Part shown: one piece after another, positions 45,395-63,660 of the stretch
Numbering within the stretch: the first letter of the stretch is position 1
How the letters are laid out: each line of letters starts with the position of its first letter
NCBI GenBank assembly: GCA_013368315.1
Contig: JAACJM010000179.1
Location: forward strand, 1-64,000
Direction of reading: 5' to 3'
DNA length: 64,000 nucleotides
Source of the DNA: Tetrapyrgos nigripes
Lineage: Eukaryota > Basidiomycota > Agaricomycetes > Agaricales > Campanellaceae
The notes under the pieces: generated by a model
Told to the model about the DNA's origin: nothing
Database searches by the model: none
The model's input: the letters and a program-made list of their open reading frames with translations, nothing else
Translations under genes and position numbers: made by a program

Positions 45395-45417
45395 GAAGAT
45401 ATGAAAGGCTCAGAAGT

Positions 45418-46061
45418 TGTGTCAGCTTTACTCTTGACGCTGACGGTCACTCACAAATTTATTATCTCTTCACATTTCCCTTGGGCTTCTTGCTTGCAGA
45501 ATATCACTATTCATCCTCCTTTGTACCTTGAAATGAACGACAAAACCCAAGAGAAGATATCTCGAATGTGGTGATTGATGAAGCAGGAAAATTGAAGTTG
45601 ACCTCTGGTACAATCGGATTCTGCTATGTCTTTTGCTGGTCGCTTCAATTCCGCACCCTAAAACAAGCTCGCAGGCCTTTCTAGGGCAGCCACGATCGTT
45701 TAGAGGTCTTCCAGATTCGGATTTGACCGCGAAGAAAACCAAAACATTTCTATGCATATTGGATTGTGGAACTGTGTTTTCACGTCGACCGACAGTTTTG
45801 AGTACGGTCTCTTTGGACTGGAATTGATATGGGTTAGGTGAAGAACGTTAGACTTGTAGAGCTGTTGGATGTTGGAAAACTTGTTCTCCGAGATGAGTAC
45901 TGTAGGCATACTCGGTTTTTCTGAATCCCCATGCTCAAACGCAGCTCAAACCCACAATTCTGATTCGTCTCAGTCTAGTTTTCCACCCTCTATAATGCCC
46001 AGGCTCCAACTGCTCTCGTGTCTGCGGCACCAATGATTGAAACGTCATTGATTCGTCGCTG
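45418..46061 (+). promoter_or_regulatory. Duplicated upstream region of WD40 gene A
   Basis: The sequence from about 45418 onward matches about 59626-60302 upstream of WD40 gene B with small indels. A TATAATG motif at 45991-45997 is conserved in all three promoter copies (60216-60222 and 63831-63837). Confidence 0.7.
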
Positions 46062-47501
46062 ATGGTTGAGTCAGAACCTATCAAAGCTCATTCATACACT
46101 ACCTTGATTCCGTTACTGATACCACCCACGGATACTATGTCTTCCACGACCAGGTTTTCCTCTGAGCAGTTTTTCGCCAGCTGGAAATTCGAATTGGACC
46201 ACGATTTCACCAAAGACGGTCAACCTGCTACCTTCTTTCCCGGTCATCCGAAGCAATGGGGAGATGAAAACGCTCGGCTTGATCTCCCGAAACTGGAGCA
46301 GTATCAGTCGCGAATCATTGCTTTGAATGAAGATGGCACACTCTTGGGAGTTGGGGTTGGCGGCGATGTGCTCATCTACGACATGGCTTCGCTGTCGCTT
46401 CTTCGTACACTGCGGGGCATACGTCCTCGTTCCATGTCCTCCATCGTCTTTCAGCCCGGCCGCGGGAGGGATGCCAAAGTACTCGTTGGAGCCAACTATA
46501 TCCAAGGACAGCGCTCCAAAACGCTTCCTATATTCAAATGCTGGGACCTAGTAGACGCAGGTTCATCTCAGGATGCCATGGTAGAAGCTGCAAAGGCCTC
46601 GGCCTCCGTTGTTGTTAGGACAATGGTGGGAAAAGGCTCCTGGTCAGAAGGTGATGTCGACGAGTCGAAAGTCCAGCAAGAAATTCTGGACGCGATATCG
46701 TGGACACATCTGGAGCTGGAGTTGCAGAAGGGTCGAGCTTTTGAAGGAACCATCCAGGGGAAAGTCTTCAGCCCTGACGGATCGTTCTTTCTCTTTTTCA
46801 AAGAACGAAACACCGTTGTTGCCATTGACATCGAGAGTCTTCAAGAGTGTTACTCGCTTGTTGGACATACCGGCAATATCATTTGGGCAGAGGCGACCCC
46901 TGATAATAATATCATTGGCACCTCGTCTTGGGACCACACCGTGCGTCTGTGGGATGCTGCTACAGGTCAAGAGATCCGGGTGCTGACTGGCGCAACCAAT
47001 CGATCTTTGTCTGGCGCATTCTCACCTGATGGAAAGCTCATCTGTGCCGGTTGTGAGGATCACCGAATTCGTGTTTGGTCCGTTGAAAGTGGGGGATTGT
47101 TACATACATTGGATGGATATAGGCAACGGGTTCGGAGTCTGGCGTTTAGCCCTGACGGGAAGTCACTTGTTGCTACTGGAGCTTCTGGCGGGAATTTGAT
47201 GGTGTTTGATCTCGAGACAGGGAAGAGTAGACAGAATTGGAAATTGAAGCTGAGCGTTGTGGAAACTCACTTCGTTGCAGTGACCAATCTCCTTTACACT
47301 TCCCGAGGATTGCTGGTATTCAGGGCTGGCGATGGACTGGTGTTCACATATGATGAAAAGACCAACGAGAAGGGTCAATATGAACATGGGCCTGGAGTAT
47401 CGGTATCTTCAAGTGGAGGACACGCAATCGTTACTCCCGATGGCAAAACGTTGATTGTTGCGGACTTTGACGGATGTGTTCGGTTTTGGAGCTTGGACTG
47501 A
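46062..47501 (+). CDS. WD40-repeat protein, copy A
   Basis: This intronless gene encodes 479 residues. WD-type blades are visible, including GTSSWDHTVRLWDAATG, SPDGKLICAGCEDHRIRVWS, FSPDGKSLVATGASGG and the closing TPDGKTLIVADFDGCVRFWS. The N-terminal part carries earlier, diverged blades (LNEDGTLLGVGVGGDVLIYD). WD40 propellers are protein-interaction platforms; no catalytic, NACHT or other partner domain is fused here. The first ATG at 46062 gives 25 extra residues before MSSTTRFSSEQFF at 46137. Both copies keep that extension open, but the flanks are also near-identical, so the true start is undecided. The lack of introns is unusual next to intron-rich neighbours. Function is unknown. Confidence 0.85.
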   Translation: MVESEPIKAHSYTTLIPLLIPPTDTMSSTTRFSSEQFFASWKFELDHDFTKDGQPATFFPGHPKQWGDENARLDLPKLEQYQSRIIALNEDGTLLGVGVGGDVLIYDMASLSLLRTLRGIRPRSMSSIVFQPGRGRDAKVLVGANYIQGQRSKTLPIFKCWDLVDAGSSQDAMVEAAKASASVVVRTMVGKGSWSEGDVDESKVQQEILDAISWTHLELELQKGRAFEGTIQGKVFSPDGSFFLFFKERNTVVAIDIESLQECYSLVGHTGNIIWAEATPDNNIIGTSSWDHTVRLWDAATGQEIRVLTGATNRSLSGAFSPDGKLICAGCEDHRIRVWSVESGGLLHTLDGYRQRVRSLAFSPDGKSLVATGASGGNLMVFDLETGKSRQNWKLKLSVVETHFVAVTNLLYTSRGLLVFRAGDGLVFTYDEKTNEKGQYEHGPGVSVSSSGGHAIVTPDGKTLIVADFDGCVRFWSLD

Positions 47502-47675
47502 GAGTGTTGGAGCTGTGTGAGGCCTTGTACATCCCTGGAACTATGTAGTACTATTGTATGTAATGACAATGAATTCGATGTAAGGACTTCATTTCAATGA
47601 ATGTTACGGAGCATGCGTACGGAGAGCTGGGAACTTTGGGACTCGACAAGCATCACCATGAGCCTAGATTGTACA

Positions 47676-54464: not shown

Positions 54465-56684
54465 ATGGCATCCCTGGACACGCTTGAGCTAGCAACGCGT
54501 ACTCCTCTCCCTCAATCTACTTCCACTGTACACTCTCATTCTCAGCAACGTCTTCCAGTTGTCAATGGAAACACGAGTCCTGTCTCCACAGTCCCAGACG
54601 CGACCGCGCCCGAAAGAAATGTTGACGATATCAATACAGTTGACGATGACGATCCCAATCTTCCCAGATTAAACGAGTCCTCTTTACCCCCAATGGACGG
54701 AGGATATCATGCTTGGTCTTATGTACGTCGACGCGTCTCGAATTGTTTTTTATCAAGTGCTAATCCAGTTTTTGTGTTTCTGTTTCTGCAGTTGATAGCG
54801 GCCTTCTTCGTGGAGACAATTGTATGGGGGTTTCCCGAAACTTTTGGTGTTTTTCTCGAAGGTAAGTCACGTAACCACCTTTGTAAAATTGGCCTTTTCT
54901 CCTCTTGCTTCCCAATGGAGAACCTCCCCCTTTTACACGGAGATTTCGCATAACCCTTTTTTTCAGATGGTAGTATGGAGATCATGGAAAACTTCAAACT
55001 GACTATTCTATGTTCTTAGATTATCTCTCTGACCCGTCATATGCTTCTCAGCCCAATGCCAACTTCCTCTTACCCCTAATTGGGCCAATCTCCACGGGAA
55101 TAATGTATTGCTCGAGTTAGCCCTCGTTTCTTCTTTGAAAGCATTGTATGTATATCTGACTGGCTCGCGACAGGTCCTTTTCTTGATCCACTCATCACAC
55201 GTTATCCTTACTACAGACAGACGGCAATGCGCATTGGCGCAGTCATATGTGCTGCAGCGTTGTTCGGTGCAAGCTGGGCTAGAAGCGTGAGTCATAGTAC
55301 CGTTTTCCGTGCATGTACCCTGGTGCTCATGTCACTATAACCCACAGGTGCCGCAGTTACTGGTTCTCCAAGGCGTCATCTACGCAATCGGTGGTTCTCT
55401 TCTATACTACCCGACCCTCTCCTACCTCAACTCCTGGTTTCTCGTTCGCAGAGGACTCGCAAACGGCGTCGTCTTCGCGGGAACTTCCACTGGCGGGGTG
55501 CTGCTCCCGCTGGTCATACCGCGTTTATTACAGAGGTATGGGTCTAGAGTCGTTTTGAGATGGCTTGGGGTATCCGTGGGTGTTGGATTGATTCCTGGTA
55601 TGATCTGGATAAAACCACGCGTTCCAGAGAGAGTTGGACCTCGTCCTCCTTCTCGTGCTCCGTCTGCCCCCAGTCGGAGGACGCGCAGTTCAGCAGATGC
55701 GAGTGTATATGAAAGAGTAAAGGAGTGTTTTAGGCAGCGACTTTCCTGGTGGTTTTCTCGTTCATCATTTCTCGTCCTTCTGGCTGCGAATACTGTGCAA
55801 GGGTTTGGATACTATATGCCTCTGATTTGGTTACCCAGTGAGTCATCTCTTGACATGTGCTGGTATCAGGAGAAGCTGCTAACAATGGACGACCAGCATA
55901 TGCTTCCTCGCTCAATCTGGACAAGACAAGATCATCTCTTGCGTTATCTCTTCTCAATGCGGGCGGTTTCATAGGACGTCTCACTTTCGGATTTCTTTCC
56001 GATAAACTCGACCCTTGGGTCCTATCACTTGGGACACTCATCTCAACTACGCTCTCGGTATTTGTTTTGTGGGGTTAGTCTCTGATTTTATGCATTTTAT
56101 TTGTGTTGGTGACTAAAGCATTTCACTCTGAGAAAAGGTGTATGTTCCTCCAATCTGGCAGGTTTACTGTCGTTTGGCTTGACGTACGGAATCGTCGGTG
56201 GTGGTTGGGTGACTGTGTGGGCCGGTTTTATCAAGAGGAGTGTCAGACCTGGGACTAACGAACGAAGTGCGTCTTACGAGGTCAGTAAGTAATGTTATCT
56301 GATCAAAGGTATCCAGGATCCGGGTATGACGACCCACGTCTGACCTCAACCCTTTTTGGTTACCTCATGCTTTCTCGTGGAATTGGGAATATCTTCTCGA
56401 CTCCGATCTCTTCTGTCCTTTCTTCCACCTCCAATGATTCCAGCAATGTCACCAGTTTGTCAAGCTCACTCTCCACGATGAACAAGATCTTTTTGACGAA
56501 GAAGCATTATGTCGTGGAAGAGAATGTACACACTGGGTTCTCAGTATCTGATCATCGTTTCCAAAGTCTGATTGTGTATGTGGGGACGTGTTTTGCAGCG
56601 TCGGCGGTGATTATGCTGGTGGGATGGGGCTGGGAGGTGTGGAATTTCCGAAAAACAGGAGGGAGAGCGAATTCCAGGCGATAG
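54465..56684 (+). CDS. Monocarboxylate-transporter-like MFS protein, copy 1
   Basis: The gene starts at 54465 (MASLDTLELATRTPLPQ). A polar N-terminus ends in LNESSLPPMDGGYHAWSY, the usual lead into TM1 of fungal MCT-like carriers (LIAAFFVETIVWGFPETFGV). Other marks are PLIGPISTGIMYCSSPFLD, GVIYAIGGSLLYYPTLSYL, NSWFLVRRGLANGVVFAGTS, a long central loop with PRVPERVGPRPPSRAPS, ANTVQGFGYYMPLIWLP, GGFIGRLTFGFLSDKLDPW and SRGIGNIFSTPISS. The last exon encodes TGFSVSDHRFQSLIVYVGTC before the final TM and stop at 56684. About 12 TM helices are likely; the substrate (monocarboxylate or riboflavin-like) is unknown. It is a tandem paralogue of the gene at 57090. Confidence 0.85.
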
Positions 56685-57089: not shown

Positions 57090-59449
57090 ATGACTCGGCT
57101 CAGTCTCATTTCTTGCCAGCATGTCTTCTCCAGACATTTTCAAACTGGCGACGCTCACCCTCTCCCAAAATCTTCATCTAACATCCATCTTGCACCGGCT
57201 TCACCTCATTCGACTTCAGACAATAGCCTCACCAACGAACACTGCATTTGTCAACCTCTTGGGCGTGCTACTACTGATAATAACGCTGCAGACACGAGCA
57301 ATGCCGTTGCTCCAGAGGTTGCCCATGCGAGAGACAGGGCGGGGACGGGACTTGACATGGACGAGGATCCTAATATTCCAAGATTGAATGAATCCTCTTT
57401 ACCTCCAATGGATCGAGGTTTCGGTGCTTGGTCTTACGTGCGTTTACTATGTATTTGCAGCGCGGAGATGCTGTTTCTTACCGTATTGTCTATATCTAGC
57501 TCGTTGCAGCGTTTCTCGTTGAAACTATTGTATGGGGCTTTCCCCTCACTTTTGGGGTCTTCTTGGAAGGTGAGTTGCTACCAAACTATCTAATGCTGTT
57601 CCAAAATTACGATTCCAGAATATCTCAGTGACCCAGTATATGCCTCCCAACCTAATGCCCAATTTCTCTTACCCCTGATTGGTCCAATCTCTATGGGCAT
57701 CATATACTGTTCAAGTGAGCTAGTTCTCTCTTACAGAGAGATTGCTGACAGCAACTTGGCTTCAGGCCCTATTCTCAACCCTCTGCTCGTGATTCGTTAT
57801 CCCTATTATCGCCGTGCAGCTATGCATCTTGGCGTCGTCTTGTGTGCCGGATCATTGATAGGTGCAAGTTGGGCTAGAACTGTATGTGAAGCTCATCAGT
57901 TCGAGTCTCTGCTCTTCTCATCGTTTTCTAGATCCCTCAGGTTCTCATTCTGCAAGGTATCATCTACGCCGTGGGTGGCGCTCTCCTCTGGCATCCAACC
58001 CTCTCTTACCTGCCTGCCTGGTTTCTCGAGCGCCGGGGTTTCGCAAATGGGGTCTTTTTTGCAGGTGCGCATGCGAGTACTGGTTTTTCAGTCTCGAATC
58101 ATCGTTTTCAGAATCTCATACTTTACGTCGGGACGTATTTTAGGTGCAGCCGTCGGCGGTGTGATCTTGCCTCTACTACTACCATCGTTGCTTCAAAAGT
58201 ATGGGTCTGCGGTCACCTTGCGATACATTGGGGTTTCTGTCGGCGTGGGGCTGTTCCCAGCTGTGCTTTTGATCAAACCTCGCGTTCCCGAGAGGGGTCG
58301 TCCTCGTCCCCGTCCTCGTCACGCCGCTGACTCAAGATTGCCGGGTTCACAAAGAAAGTCAGTTCTTGAGAGAACAAAGGAAGGCGTCAAGAAAAGATTG
58401 TCGTGGTGGTCCATCCACTCATCTTTTGTCATCCTCCTCATTGCCAACACGGTTCAAGCCTTTGGGTTTTTTATGCCATTGATTTGGTTACCTAGTGAGT
58501 TTCCATTTTCTTGTGTATGACTTGCTCTAACGGTTGCATCAGCTTATGCATCTTCTCTCAACCTGAACAGAACTGAATCCTCGCTTGTTCTTTCTCTACT
58601 GCACGGAGGATCTGTCATAGGACGTCTGGGTCTTGGCTTCCTTTCCGATAAAGTTGACCCTTGGATTTTGGCGGTAGGGACACTCGTCTCTACCACGCTA
58701 TCAGTCTTCATACTTTGGGGCCAGTCTTTTATCAATTGTTTTCTTCAAAGATGATGTACGATGATGCTAATTTGGTTTCTATCATACAGGTATATGTTCC
58801 TTCAACCTGACAGGTCTGTTAATATTCGGCTTGGTGTATGGAACTTTCGCAGGCGGTTGGAGCACGCTATTCACAGGGTTTGTACGGGGCAATGTCAGAG
58901 GTAGAGGTGAAGCTCATGGAAGAGGCGAGTCTTTTACCATTATCGTCGATTACAAAGTGATAATAATTCCTAGCAGCAACAGGACCTGATGACCCTCAGC
59001 TCGCATCTACGCTCCTTGGATATCTAACACTCACTCGTGGGATTGGGAATGTCTTTTCGACACCAATTTCTTCCGTCCTTCAACCATCAAGTTCTCCTTC
59101 CTCTGGATCCAACCCTGGACCTTTCGCCGTCATCAACAGTACCAGTAGCAATACTGTTACCAACCCTCGCATCCCAGTCTTTCCAATATTGACCCGGGGT
59201 TTGCGTTTACTACCTGAGCAAATCCAGGCTCAGGGTAATGCCACTCAAGCTCATGATCAGTTGGCCGCGCATGCGAGTACAGGTTTTTCAGTCTCGAATC
59301 ATCGTTTTCAGAATCTCATAGTCTACGTCGGGACGTGTTTTGCCGCGGCGGCGGTGGTTATGTTGATGGGCTGGAGTTGGGAGAAGTGGAATTTGAGGAG
59401 GAATAGGATTAGTATCGGAAGTGGTAGGAATAGGCCAGGACGATACTAG
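57090..59449 (+). CDS. Monocarboxylate-transporter-like MFS protein, copy 2, with an extra intron
   Basis: This tandem paralogue of the 54465 gene shares TM regions and loops (LNESSLPPMDRGFGAWSY, PLIGPISMGIIYCSS, GASWART, YAVGGALLWHPTLSYL, RYIGVSVGVGLFPAVL, IANTVQAFGFFMPLIWLP, FLSDKVDPWILAVGT) and a last exon with STGFSVSNHRFQNLIVYVG. The ATG matching copy 1 (57121, MSSPDIFKLAT) is out of frame with the rest because of a one-base deficit near 57152-57158 relative to copy 1. The ATG at 57090 (MTRLSLISCQ) is in frame and is used here. Copy 2 has an intron at 58065-58143 where copy 1 has continuous coding sequence; splicing it gives FFAGAAVGGVILPLLLP. Its body is a copy of the last-exon sequence of this same gene. 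Confidence 0.8.
58065..58143 (+). other. Intron apparently created by duplication of last-exon sequence
   Basis: The 79-bp segment starts GTGCGC and ends TTTTAG. Bases 58067-58141 match 59267-59341 in the same orientation with only a handful of mismatches. AGGTGC is present at both junctions (58063-58068 and 58142-58147). Its length is not a multiple of three and it breaks the reading frame if retained, so it must be spliced for a full-length product. Confidence 0.85.
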
Positions 59450-60302
59450 GTTGGACGAGCCAAGACCGGGGACAGATCTAGACTCTTGAGAGGTTTCTAG
59501 TTGTGTTCGTCTTATGTTTCCTGATCTAAACTGCTACAGCGTACGTAGAAGATGTAAATAAATATAAAAGGCTCAGTGGCCTCCTGTAGACGTAGAGTTC
59601 CTCAAGAATATGTTTATGTCTCATTTGTGTCAGCTTTACTCTTGCCGCTGACGGTCACTCACAAACCTTCCCTTGGGCTTCTTGCTTGCAGAATATCGCT
59701 ATTCATCCTCCTTCGTACCTTGAAATGAACGACGAGACCCAAGAGAAGATACTTCGAATATGGTGATGGATGAAGCAGGAAAGTTAAAGTTGACCTCTGG
59801 TTACAATCTGATTCTGGTATGTCTATAATAATAAATTCTATTGCTGGTTGCTTCAATTCCGCACCCTAAAGGCTAAAACAAGCTCGCAGGCCTTTCTAGG
59901 GCAGCCATAATCGTTTAGAGGTCTTCCAGATTCGCTAGGAAACCCAAACATTTCTATGCATATTGGATTGTGGAACTGCGTTTTTAACGTCGACGGTTTT
60001 GAGGACGGTCTTTTTGGATTGGGAATTGGCATGGGTTGGGTGCAAGTTGGATGAAAAATGTTAGACTTATTATAGAGAGGCTGTTGGATGTTGGAAAAAT
60101 TGTTCTCCGAGGTGAGTACTGTGGGTATACTCGGGTTTTCTGAATCCTCATGCTCAAATGCAGCTCAAACCCGTCAATTCTGATCCTCGGTGTCTCAGTC
60201 TAGTTTTCCAGCCTCTATAATGCCAAAGCCCCCACTGCTCTCGGGTCTTCGGGTCTGGCGGCGCTAATAATTGAGACGTCATTGATTCGTCGCTGAGCGC
60301 TG
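59450..60302 (+). promoter_or_regulatory. 3' flank of transporter copy 2 and duplicated promoter of WD40 gene B
   Basis: From about 59626 the sequence matches the upstream region of WD40 gene A. It contains the conserved TATAATG at 60216-60222. The hAT element present beside copy A is absent here; the related stretch reads GTAGAAGATG...AAAGGCTCAG near 59547-59576. Confidence 0.65.
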
Positions 60303-61742
60303 ATGACTGAGTCACCTATCATATATCAAAGCCATTCATACACTACCTTGATACCGTTACTAATACCACCCACGGATACTATGTCTTCCACGACCAGGTT
60401 GTCCTCTGAGCAGTTTTTCGCCAGCTGGAAATTCGAGTTGGACCACGATTTCACCAAAGATGGTCAACCTGCTGCCTTCTTTCCCGGTCATCCGAAGCAA
60501 TGGGGAGATGAAAACGCTCGGCTTGATCTCCCGAAACTGGAGCAGTATCAGTCGCGAATCATTGCTTTGAATGAAGATGGCACACTCTTGGGAGTTGGGG
60601 TTGGCGGCGATGTGCTCATCTACGACATGGCTTCGCTGTCGCTTCTTCGTACACTGCGGGGCATACGTCCTCGTTCCATGTCCTCTATCGTCTTTCAGCC
60701 TGGCCATGGGAGGGATGCCAAAGTACTCGTTGGAGCCAACTATATCCAAGGACAGCGCTCCAAATGGCTTTCTATTTTCAAATGCTGGGACCTAGCAGAC
60801 GCAGGTCCATCTCAGGACGCCCTGGTAGAAGCCGCAAAGGCTTCAGCCTCCGTTGCTGTTAGGACAATGGTGGAAAAAGGCTCCTGGTCAGAAGGCGATG
60901 TCGATGAGTCGAAAGTCCAGCAACAAATTCTGGACGCGATATCGTGGACACATCTGGAGCTGGAGTTGCGGAAGGGTCGAGTTTTGGAAGGAACTATCCG
61001 GGGGAAAGTCTTCAGCTCTGACGGATCGTTCTTCCTCTTTTTCAAAGAACCGAACACCGTTGTTGCCGTTGACACTGAGAGTCTCCAAGAGCGTTACTCC
61101 CTTGTTGGACATACCGACAGTATCATGTGGGCAGAGACGAGTCCCGATGATAGTATCATTGGCACCTCGTCTTGGGACCACACCGTGCGTCTGTGGGATG
61201 CCACTACAGGTCAACAGATCCGAGTGCTGACTGGCGCAACCAATCAGTCTTGGTCTGGCGCATTTTCACCTGATGGAAAGCTCATCTGTGCCGGTTGTGG
61301 AGACCGGCAAGTTCGTGTTTGGTCTGTTGAAAGTGGGGAATTGTTGCATACATTGGGAGGATATAAGCAATGGGTTCGCAGTCCCGCATTTAGCCCTGAC
61401 GGGAAGTCACTTGCTGCTGGAGCTGCTAGCGGGACTTTGAGGGTGTTTGATCTCGAAACAGGGGAGAGTAGACAGAATTGGCAAGTAAAGCTGAGGCCTC
61501 TGGAGAGTAGCTTCATTGAAGTGGCTGATGCCCTTTACACTTCCCGAGGATTGCTGGTATTCAGGGCTGGCGATGGACTGGTGTTCACATATGATGAAAA
61601 GACTAACGAGAAGGGTCAATATGGACATGGGCCTGGAGTAGCGGGAAGTATAAGTACTGGAGGACACGTTGTCACTCCTGACGGCAAAACGCTAATTATT
61701 GCGGACTTTGACGGATGTGTTCGATTTTGGAGCTTGGACTGA
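60303..61742 (+). CDS. WD40-repeat protein, copy B
   Basis: This intronless 479-residue gene is collinear over its whole length with copy A at 46062, with scattered substitutions concentrated in the second half (for example CGDRQVRVWSVESGELL against CEDHRIRVWSVESGGLL in copy A). Blades include GTSSWDHTVRLWDATTG and the end DFDGCVRFWSLD. The upstream 25 residues again precede an internal MSSTTRLSSEQFF at 60378. The duplicated block spans about 59626-61860, matching about 45418-47640, so promoter, gene and 3' flank moved together. Differences cluster in predicted surface loops of the propeller, which could reflect diversifying binding, but this is inference. Confidence 0.85.
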   Translation: MTESPIIYQSHSYTTLIPLLIPPTDTMSSTTRLSSEQFFASWKFELDHDFTKDGQPAAFFPGHPKQWGDENARLDLPKLEQYQSRIIALNEDGTLLGVGVGGDVLIYDMASLSLLRTLRGIRPRSMSSIVFQPGHGRDAKVLVGANYIQGQRSKWLSIFKCWDLADAGPSQDALVEAAKASASVAVRTMVEKGSWSEGDVDESKVQQQILDAISWTHLELELRKGRVLEGTIRGKVFSSDGSFFLFFKEPNTVVAVDTESLQERYSLVGHTDSIMWAETSPDDSIIGTSSWDHTVRLWDATTGQQIRVLTGATNQSWSGAFSPDGKLICAGCGDRQVRVWSVESGELLHTLGGYKQWVRSPAFSPDGKSLAAGAASGTLRVFDLETGESRQNWQVKLRPLESSFIEVADALYTSRGLLVFRAGDGLVFTYDEKTNEKGQYGHGPGVAGSISTGGHVVTPDGKTLIIADFDGCVRFWSLD

Positions 61743-62550
61743 ATGCTGGAGCTGTGTACATTCTTGGAACTATGTAGTACCATTGTATGTAAAGATATGG
61801 GTTCGGTGTAAGGGCTTCATTACAATGAATGTTACGGAGCTCCGAGAACTTCGGAACTGGTCTTATTGTCTGGAATTAGCGGTTAAACGCAATCCCAACG
61901 TCTCTTAATAACCCAAACCTGTCTCCACTCATACGTCTTCTTAACACGAAAACCGTACAGCTCAAGGAGTTCTACGCTGACATCTCAATCTATGCCAACC
62001 AGAAATGTGGGCCCCCATATATGGTGGCAAGTACGAGCCCGAAAATCAGCAAATGGTGGCTATACTGTATTATTTTGAGCTTATGAACAGGGATAGGAGC
62101 CAAACATGCCGAGATATTTGAAGACACACGGCGGTATTTGTAGGCAGAGGGTTTGTGACACATCATTAGGTGTGGTCAAAGTGTGGGGAAAAAATCCATT
62201 GATCCTTGTTGGTTTTATTCGAAGCAAAGTTCAGCGAGGTCGTCCTAAATGACTTACAAGATGTAGTATTTCAAATTTAGTTCCTTTTCTGTCACATGTG
62301 GCAAGATGGACCTCATCCGTGAACTGCCTTTTCTAGGTCACTTGTTCTTTCTTTTATTTCCGCTTTGGTCATATACTTAGTGTACTCATAGCCACAGTAA
62401 CCTCAGCATTGTCTCTTCATATCGCTGAGATTAGTAAGTATTCATACTTATTCTTCTATTTAGTCTTACTTACGCAACATACAGCGAAGTCTTTTGTATT
62501 AGACTCTGAAGAGAAAACCTCAAGTCCTACACAAGAAAGCTCATAAAGCA
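61743..62550. other. Intergenic, about 800 bp
   Basis: The start still matches the 3' flank of WD40 copy A up to about 61860. Beyond that no gene or repeat is recognised. Confidence 0.5.
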
Positions 62551-62709: not shown

Positions 62710-63018
62710 TTACAGCAAATTGCATATCGATAGACCAGTTTTGTCAGAAAACTCTTTACGATTTTTGTTTGTAGTGGCGCTTAGACCAAACAAACATTTT
62801 ACGGCAAGACTTCGGCACCTGTGTAATCTATTTAACTGACGTCCTCCCCGCTGGTTCCGAATTACTGAACCGGTTACAAGTACAAGTTTCTTGACCCGAT
62901 TCACGGTCCTATGACTGACATGAAATGATCGGGCTATCTCACTAGACTTCGAATACGGCGTTGCTGCATATATGCGCTCCTTAACGCTGGGGTGAATGAA
63001 TCGTCGATTGCTGACCAT
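62710..63018 (-). pseudogene. Truncated transposase, N-terminal helix-turn-helix only
   Basis: The minus-strand frame starts MVSNRRFIHPSVKERIYAA and contains a helix-turn-helix of Tc1/mariner type (SSEIARSFHVSHRTVNRVKK). It then runs into the terminal inverted repeat and stops. The DDE/D catalytic domain is missing, so it cannot transpose itself. It may still bind the long inverted repeats. Confidence 0.7.
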
Positions 63019-63154
63019 GATGCGAGAAGGGAATGTAATGTTTGAGTATTTTTAGCTACAAACCCGCCTCATGTTGTTTGGTTCGAGCGCCACTACAAAC
63101 AAAAATCGTAAAGAGTTTTCTGACAAAACTGGTCTATCGATATGCAATTTGCTG
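62713..63154 (-). mobile_element. Short Tc1/mariner-type element with 68-bp perfect inverted repeats
   Basis: The ends at 62713-62780 and 63087-63154 are exact reverse complements for 68 bp, beginning CAGCAAATTGCATATCG. TA flanks both ends (62711-62712 and 63155-63156), the hallmark of Tc1/mariner insertion. Imperfect similarity extends about 15 bp further inward. The interior encodes the start of a transposase on the minus strand (listed separately). Confidence 0.9.
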
Positions 63155-63660
63155 TAACGAGGCCAAAAGCCAGAGTGGAGGTGGCTGTGTGACGCGGAAC
63201 ATACAAACAGAAAGCAAACAAAAATGTTTAGAGGCAGATGGTGGCTGTGTGGACGTGGAATGTACAAAGTGAACCAAACAAAAATGTTCGATTAACACGG
63301 CCAAAAATCTGAGGTATAAGACTCCTCATTTCATTCGGACTCGTAAAATGCTGCTCCAGCTCCAAAGCACTCCTCGACTCCGGGAAAGGAATGGATCCTT
63401 GTGATGTTGAGCTGATACCTCAAGCTACTTCCATCTGCCCAGGATGCTTTATCATGGATGACCGAGCCTGCTGTACGCAGAGCTACTCACAATGCAGCTG
63501 GCACTGGGATGATTGAACTTAAGAGTTGGTTATGGGGAAGTCTTGCCCACTACTCTCCTGATCATGGAGGCTCTGACTTGCCGTTTGCCAAAGGTTTTGC
63601 TTTAGTACTTGGCTTTGATGGGCCAGTTGCAAGGTTTGATTTTTTTTACCAGTAGACAAA

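Follow-up and report, generated by a model that had tools for sequence, protein, structure and literature searches.

The locus examined here raises the question of how a protein-coding gene may acquire a new intron, and from where the sequence of that intron was taken. The window (the whole stretch of DNA analysed, 64 kb in length) belongs to contig C175 of a 98-Mb, 587-contig assembly of Tetrapyrgos nigripes, a member of the Campanellaceae (Agaricales, Basidiomycota). On its plus strand, the window carries two MFS transporter genes in tandem, copy 1 at 54465-56684 and copy 2 at 57090-59449. The exon boundaries of copy 2 were set by hand (exons 1-5: 57090-57437, 57500-57569, 57619-57714, 57766-57881 and 57932-58064; exons 6-9: 58144-58494, 58543-58719, 58790-58924 and 58983-59449), and the spliced model forms a single open frame of 630 aa. 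Annotated T. nigripes proteins D9758_003844 and D9758_012014 were placed on contigs C20 and C108, respectively, each of which carries a paralogue of copy 2. The MFS_1 domain (PF07690) was found on the relatives P0007 (the public model of the C20 gene), P0009 (that of the C108 gene) and P0001, and by analogy with P0001 and P0006, both labelled 'MCT family' at their source, copy 2 may be a monocarboxylate-type MFS transporter. The first codons of copy 2 exon 1 (57090-57170) are in another frame than those of the C20 and C108 genes before the shared frame begins, as if two compensating indels had occurred. GC-AG introns are part of several models: introns 7 and 8 of copy 2 (58720-58789 and 58925-58982) and the same two in C20, where the C108 gene has introns beginning with GT, and intron 2 of C108 (L027 2665-2729), which begins with GC in the model. 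The C108 paralogue also has an exon frameshift, or an assembly error, near L027 3307-3330, which P0009 bypasses by means of an intron some 56 nt long by hand count. The Gly codon where this intron begins is also the one where the new copy 2 intron begins.

According to the original prediction, intron 5 of copy 2 (79 bp, 58065-58143, gtgcgc...ttttag) was born from a copy of the gene's own last exon, and the sequence comparison agreed with this. Bases 58067-58141 are identical to 59267-59341 in the last exon at 71 of 75 positions (BLAST E 8.7e-27), differing at 4 bases; as the 75 include two shared junction bases, GC, the copied intron body comprises 73 bp (58069-58141), with its source at 59269-59341. 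The predicted AGGTGC was present on both sides, at 58063-58068, where it contains the GT donor, and at 58142-58147, where it contains the AG acceptor. Apart from this repeat, the match to the source ends at both junctions; the left junction has GC in common with the source and the right junction has no shared bases. Because the GC of the left repeat could derive from either target or source, only AGGT of the repeat is unambiguous. In an in-register comparison with 28 introns of four paralogues, serving as a local control, the boundary repeat was 6 bp at the gained intron, while none of the 28 reached 6 bp and the longest was 3 bp. Excision of 58065-58143 restores FFAGAAVGGVILP within the open 630-aa frame, and copy 1 is uninterrupted at the homologous site, 55480/55481 (VFAGTSTGGVLLP), both as had been anticipated. 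Between them, the two window genes have 15 introns and 17 exons, and intron 5 of copy 2 was the only intron to match any of these exons. Whole-genome matches to the query stretch (at least five) comprised the locus itself, the C20 paralogue, two last exons and a fragment on contig C340; no sign of high-copy relatives of the intron body was seen among the matches listed, all of which came from this gene family.

The paralogues provide a relative date for the insertion. The C20 gene, 91.4% identical to copy 2 in coding sequence, carries the same insert, 78 bp in length and different from that of copy 2 by two substitutions and one indel. The flanks of the two genes do not match within the stretches compared, and the C20 gene was therefore regarded as a dispersed duplicate and not as an allele. 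The C108 paralogue (68% identical to copy 2) is uninterrupted at the insert site, as is P0001, a JGI ORF which was taken as unspliced because it seems to start and stop in neighbouring introns. A protein tree of 15 chosen rows (12 of the 120 listed proteins together with copy 1, copy 2 and P0001 joined to P0006) placed copy 2 and the C20 gene in one clade (100/100) within a larger clade (100/99) containing C108 and P0001/P0006, the branching order inside which was not settled by these 15 rows. The insert is thus confined to one clade, with the outgroup copy 1 and C108 both without it, a distribution explained if the intron was gained once, on the stem shared by copy 2 and C20. Gain rather than loss, as originally proposed, is supported by the two intron-free paralogues together with the tree. 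Since the insert is common to copy 2 and C20, the gain is older than the C175/C20 duplication, for which dS was approximately 0.20, yet young enough for the source to have stayed plain; the description of the gain as recent consequently holds in a relative sense, the insert being older than it at first seemed. Gene conversion between C175 and C20 near intron 5 was considered, as intron 5 differs at 2 of 78 sites and the remaining seven introns together at 31 of 380 (P 0.04); no such claim was made because introns 1, 6 and 8 differ equally little (2/62, 2/48 and 1/58, respectively). The insert reads CTT (Leu) where the modern last exons of both copy 2 and C20 read GTC. A comparison by eye of eight homologous last exons gave Leu in five (C108, P0008, P0010, P0012 and P0013), Val in two (copy 1 and P0011) and Ile in one (P0006), which is only suggestive of the insert having preserved an ancestral Leu codon.

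The history that we consider likely, and hold with good confidence, is that of a staggered break at AGGTGC, repaired by a patch from the gene's own last exon, with the patch spliced out and the gene later duplicated to C20. A break with a short staggered overhang would have opened exon 5 of the ancestral copy-2 gene at AGGTGC, and the gap would then have been closed during repair with a copy of approximately 73 bp of the gene's own last exon, which lies 1.2 kb downstream, the copying probably having begun on the two shared bases GC. Filling of the overhang on both sides would have duplicated AGGTGC, so that one copy of the repeat provided a GT donor (GTGCGC) and the other an AG acceptor; the copied exon would by chance have brought along a branch-like site, CTCAT. 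With donor and acceptor supplied by the repeats and a branch-like site by the patch, the spliceosome could have removed the patch and the old reading frame would have survived; the intron-bearing gene would subsequently have been duplicated to contig C20. The absence of shared bases at the right junction counts against a break-repair patch. As a template drawn at random from the genome would fall within this 2.4-kb gene only about 2 times in 100,000, nearness or co-transcription mattered. A bolder version, in which the gene repaired itself via its own transcript (or downstream exon) and the staggered AGGT break made the patch an intron in one step, is offered as a conjecture of low confidence. 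If local self-patching were general, it would constitute a route of intron birth in which the bodies usually go unrecognised after divergence.

An identical end product would result from a head-to-tail duplication of the 1.2-kb unit from AGGTGC (58063) to 59341, at that time still lacking the insert, followed by a deletion between short GC matches that removed nearly the entire first unit and left its last 73 bp. Such a history, for which tandem duplication as a documented route of intron gain provides precedent (PMC3443670, PMC4974935; each represented here in part), would need no staggered break to account for the two flanking copies of AGGTGC, and would also account for the 2 bp (GC) matched at the left junction. 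However, it requires two events and an intermediate that was either broken or endowed with a very long intron, and no other remnant of the duplicated unit was seen among the 19 non-self pairs of the 64-kb window self-comparison. We regard it as the strongest of the competing accounts, and as unlikely. Simple tandem duplication from an adjacent source was rejected, the source being 1.2 kb off and the similarity not extending into the flanking exon, although a later deletion could hide it.

Next in rank, and improbable in our judgement, is a patch for which RNA of the gene itself, or a cDNA made from it, and not DNA served as the template. Patch and source lie on one transcript in the sense orientation, with the source inside a single exon, and the low chance given above for a random genomic template would be consistent with such a template, as would RNA-derived patches reported in human break repair in the part of PMC5110952 compared. 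Against this, local DNA templates are equally near, and the patch spans no exon junction, so its sequence does not demand RNA. For the staggered-break repair preferred here, we infer that both the break occurred and DNA was the template.

Repair by such a patch would have left the reading frame intact if the patch was spliced, and the segment at 58065-58143 has the parts of a GT-AG intron: a donor, an acceptor (albeit weak), a branch-like motif and a length of 79 bp relative to 48-158 bp in the 28 control introns. One repeat copy contains the GT of the donor GTGCGC, and the other contains the AG of the acceptor TTTTAG. Sites were scored with a matrix trained on 28 introns from four related genes, which are therefore not independent, and one of which (56267-56316) was picked from three possible copy 1 introns. 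The donor was in the lower middle of the range (9 of 28 training donors scored no higher), while 2 of 114 exonic GTs scored at least as high, and intron 2 of the C20 gene begins with the identical hexamer. The acceptor was weak, with 3 of 28 training acceptors scoring no higher in C175 and 0 of 28 in C20, and 14 of 88 exonic AGs scored at least as high as the acceptor of the gained intron. An internal AG at 58111 outscored it, but no YTNAY motif is found upstream of 58111 inside the intron. The candidate branch site, CTCAT (58115-58119), has its A at 58118, 25 nt from the final base of the intron; it derives from the copied exon and is, of two YTNAY motifs in the C175 insert, the sole one also found in C20.

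Whether the segment is removed or retained was approached through selection on the spliced frame. Between copy 2 and the C20 gene, dN/dS over 580 codons was 0.297 (bootstrap 0.21-0.42), with 0.374 (0.21-0.65) before and 0.257 (0.17-0.40) after the insert; the count leaves out 37 codons with gaps as well as the initial ones, where the N-terminus is in a different frame. Downstream of the insert, the C175 branch had 16 nonsynonymous and 27 synonymous changes (p 4e-7 relative to site proportions) and the C20 branch 18 and 21, respectively (p 2e-4); these totals exclude 22 unpolarised changes (7 downstream and 15 upstream), and the codon counts are of the Nei-Gojobori type with no transition bias, a simplicity which the p values inherit. 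Retention of the 79 bp in C175 shifts the frame and leads to a stop after 342 codons, and this, together with purifying selection after the insert, implies removal there; we infer that the insert is spliced out of the C175 copy 2 transcript. Removal in C20 appears less secure, as its 78 bp are open, in frame and in the source's own reading frame (26 aa), so that selection cannot separate splicing from a 26-aa insertion. The public C20 model P0007 does exclude the segment, but lends weak support because it misreads a nearby GC-AG intron of the same gene, reading through intron 7.

The segment could accordingly be read as unspliced in both genes, that is, as a 26-aa coding insertion in C20 and, in C175, as a frameshift that disables copy 2. 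The open 78 bp of C20 would suit such a reading, as would the weak acceptors and the two GC-AG introns in each of the copy 2 and C20 models, which could be a sign of generally imperfect splicing. It is at odds with the strong constraint on the C175 branch after the insert, with the homologous C-termini that the spliced frames of copy 2 and C20 both reach, and with the two substitutions between the inserts, both of which would by our reading be amino-acid-changing if the segment were coding. Furthermore, 105 of the 107 annotated homologues with the site motif have zero extra residues at the insert site, these 107 being themselves spliced models that include P0007, with 19 of 126 proteins left out as being without the motif. 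Retention is, on this evidence, quite improbable. The two exceptions among the 107 were P0009, a faulty model, and P0117 (Flagelloscypha sp.), which has five extra residues exactly at the site of the new intron, perhaps from a mis-modelled intron at the same position.

An assembly artefact joining two places, which the original prediction had named as a possible refutation, can practically be dismissed, given the same insert with differences of its own at a second locus on another contig and the 4 base differences between insert and source. Three other origins were also rejected. For an introner or transposon-derived intron, dispersed copies would be expected, and the genome matches listed (at least five) all come from this gene family; for intron transposition by reverse splicing, a resemblance to another intron would be expected, and the matches listed are to last exons or a piece of one, apart from the C20 copy of this very intron; and for intronization of an exon, neither copy 1 nor C108 has additional sequence at the position.

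Several other copied or duplicated sequences were noted in the genome. A detached piece of the copy 2 last exon with 3' UTR adjoins high-copy repeats on C340 (L008 4553-4848), and approximately 125 bp of the last exon of copy 1 is included in a mosaic on both C101 and C44 (L028 3321-3445 and L029 3299-3423), which are 99.7% identical to each other over 6.3 kb. These observations hint that short exon copies may be scattered through the T. nigripes genome. Within the window, an inverted repeat pair of 84 bp (96% identical; 62710-62793 and 63074-63157) bounds approximately 448 bp, of which a 100% identical copy is found at C197:82224-82671, and 62710-63157 is probably a MITE-like element that moved recently. 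A second local duplication (45417-47612 and 59625-61840, 86% identical over approximately 2.2 kb) contains a gene that is WD40-like by our reading of its ORF, with a further copy (91%, 1.5 kb) just past the window at C175:64144-65648.

Sources of new introns have rarely been found where the question is addressed in the parts of the literature compared (PMC4202315, PMC3443670, PMC3296678, PMC3629103, PMC9169325, PMC4683709, PMC2395259, PMC5110952, PMC12124190, PMC3584928, PMC2809761, PMC4974935). In the sections drawn on, a source is given for 0 of 168 gained introns in Caenorhabditis (PMC9169325), for 2 of 62 from fission yeasts (PMC3629103) and for 2 of 98 from Dictyostelium (PMC4683709), and for none of the introns of basidiomycete alpha-amylase genes (PMC3584928). 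One criterion proposed for a strong case of gain is that a clear phylogeny be accompanied by a source element (Logsdon et al., cited in the part of PMC4683709 compared). Boundary repeats are in themselves a less telling sign: one survey reported direct repeats of 4-30 bp for each of the 213 introns that it examined, either at the borders or close to them (PMC11782384), gained introns in Drosophila (PMC3443670) and in fission yeasts (PMC3629103) had no repeat excess over conserved ones, and in Caenorhabditis an excess was seen at 3-5 bp and none at 6-8 bp (PMC9169325), as far as the excerpted portions of these papers go. Such surveys weaken the value of the boundary repeat as evidence.

Compared with described routes, likewise on the basis of partial texts, introners also give rise to new introns with recognisable bodies, but copy themselves into many genes (PMC9860276), whereas the copy 2 body is without high-copy relatives among the matches listed. 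Human templated sequence insertions of class 2 similarly close a break with a copied patch and microhomology, without the target duplication seen at copy 2; those of class 1 do have a target duplication (at least 5 bp), along with LINE-1 features, poly(A) among them, none of which was seen in the copy 2 insert, and neither class is described as introns in the part of PMC5110952 compared. Tandem genomic duplication with AGGT shares the exon-derived body and the use of a duplicated AGGT for both splice sites (PMC3443670, PMC4974935, PMC3629103), whereas here the source is 1.2 kb away and the similarity does not run into the neighbouring exon. The nearest case met in the literature compared is intron 4 of Dictyostelium DDB_G0273471, the body of which likewise reproduces the 3' end of a coding sequence; the source there is another gene with its 3' UTR, and according to its authors there are no direct repeats (PMC4683709). 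A non-tandem source in the gene's own exon combined with a target repeat was not found in the intron-gain literature consulted in excerpt, mostly outside subscription papers. Introns gained by break repair (Li et al. 2009, as described in parts of PMC4202315 and PMC3443670) likewise have short flanking direct repeats and sequence inserted at the break; for most of their bodies no source is given, with few exceptions such as mitochondrial rDNA, while here the source is the gene's own last exon. Presence in one clade, repeats at the boundaries and an identifiable source, the marks of break-repair gain, were all found at this locus, and an intron with an own-exon, non-tandem source would, as judged from sequence, fit within the known repair-type gain. 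The locus is a rare case in which the source of a new intron, its landing site and uninterrupted relatives are all visible. It combines, in one genome, a clear phylogeny, a source element and a target repeat with two intron-bearing copies and two intron-free paralogues, which makes the break-repair model of intron gain directly checkable.
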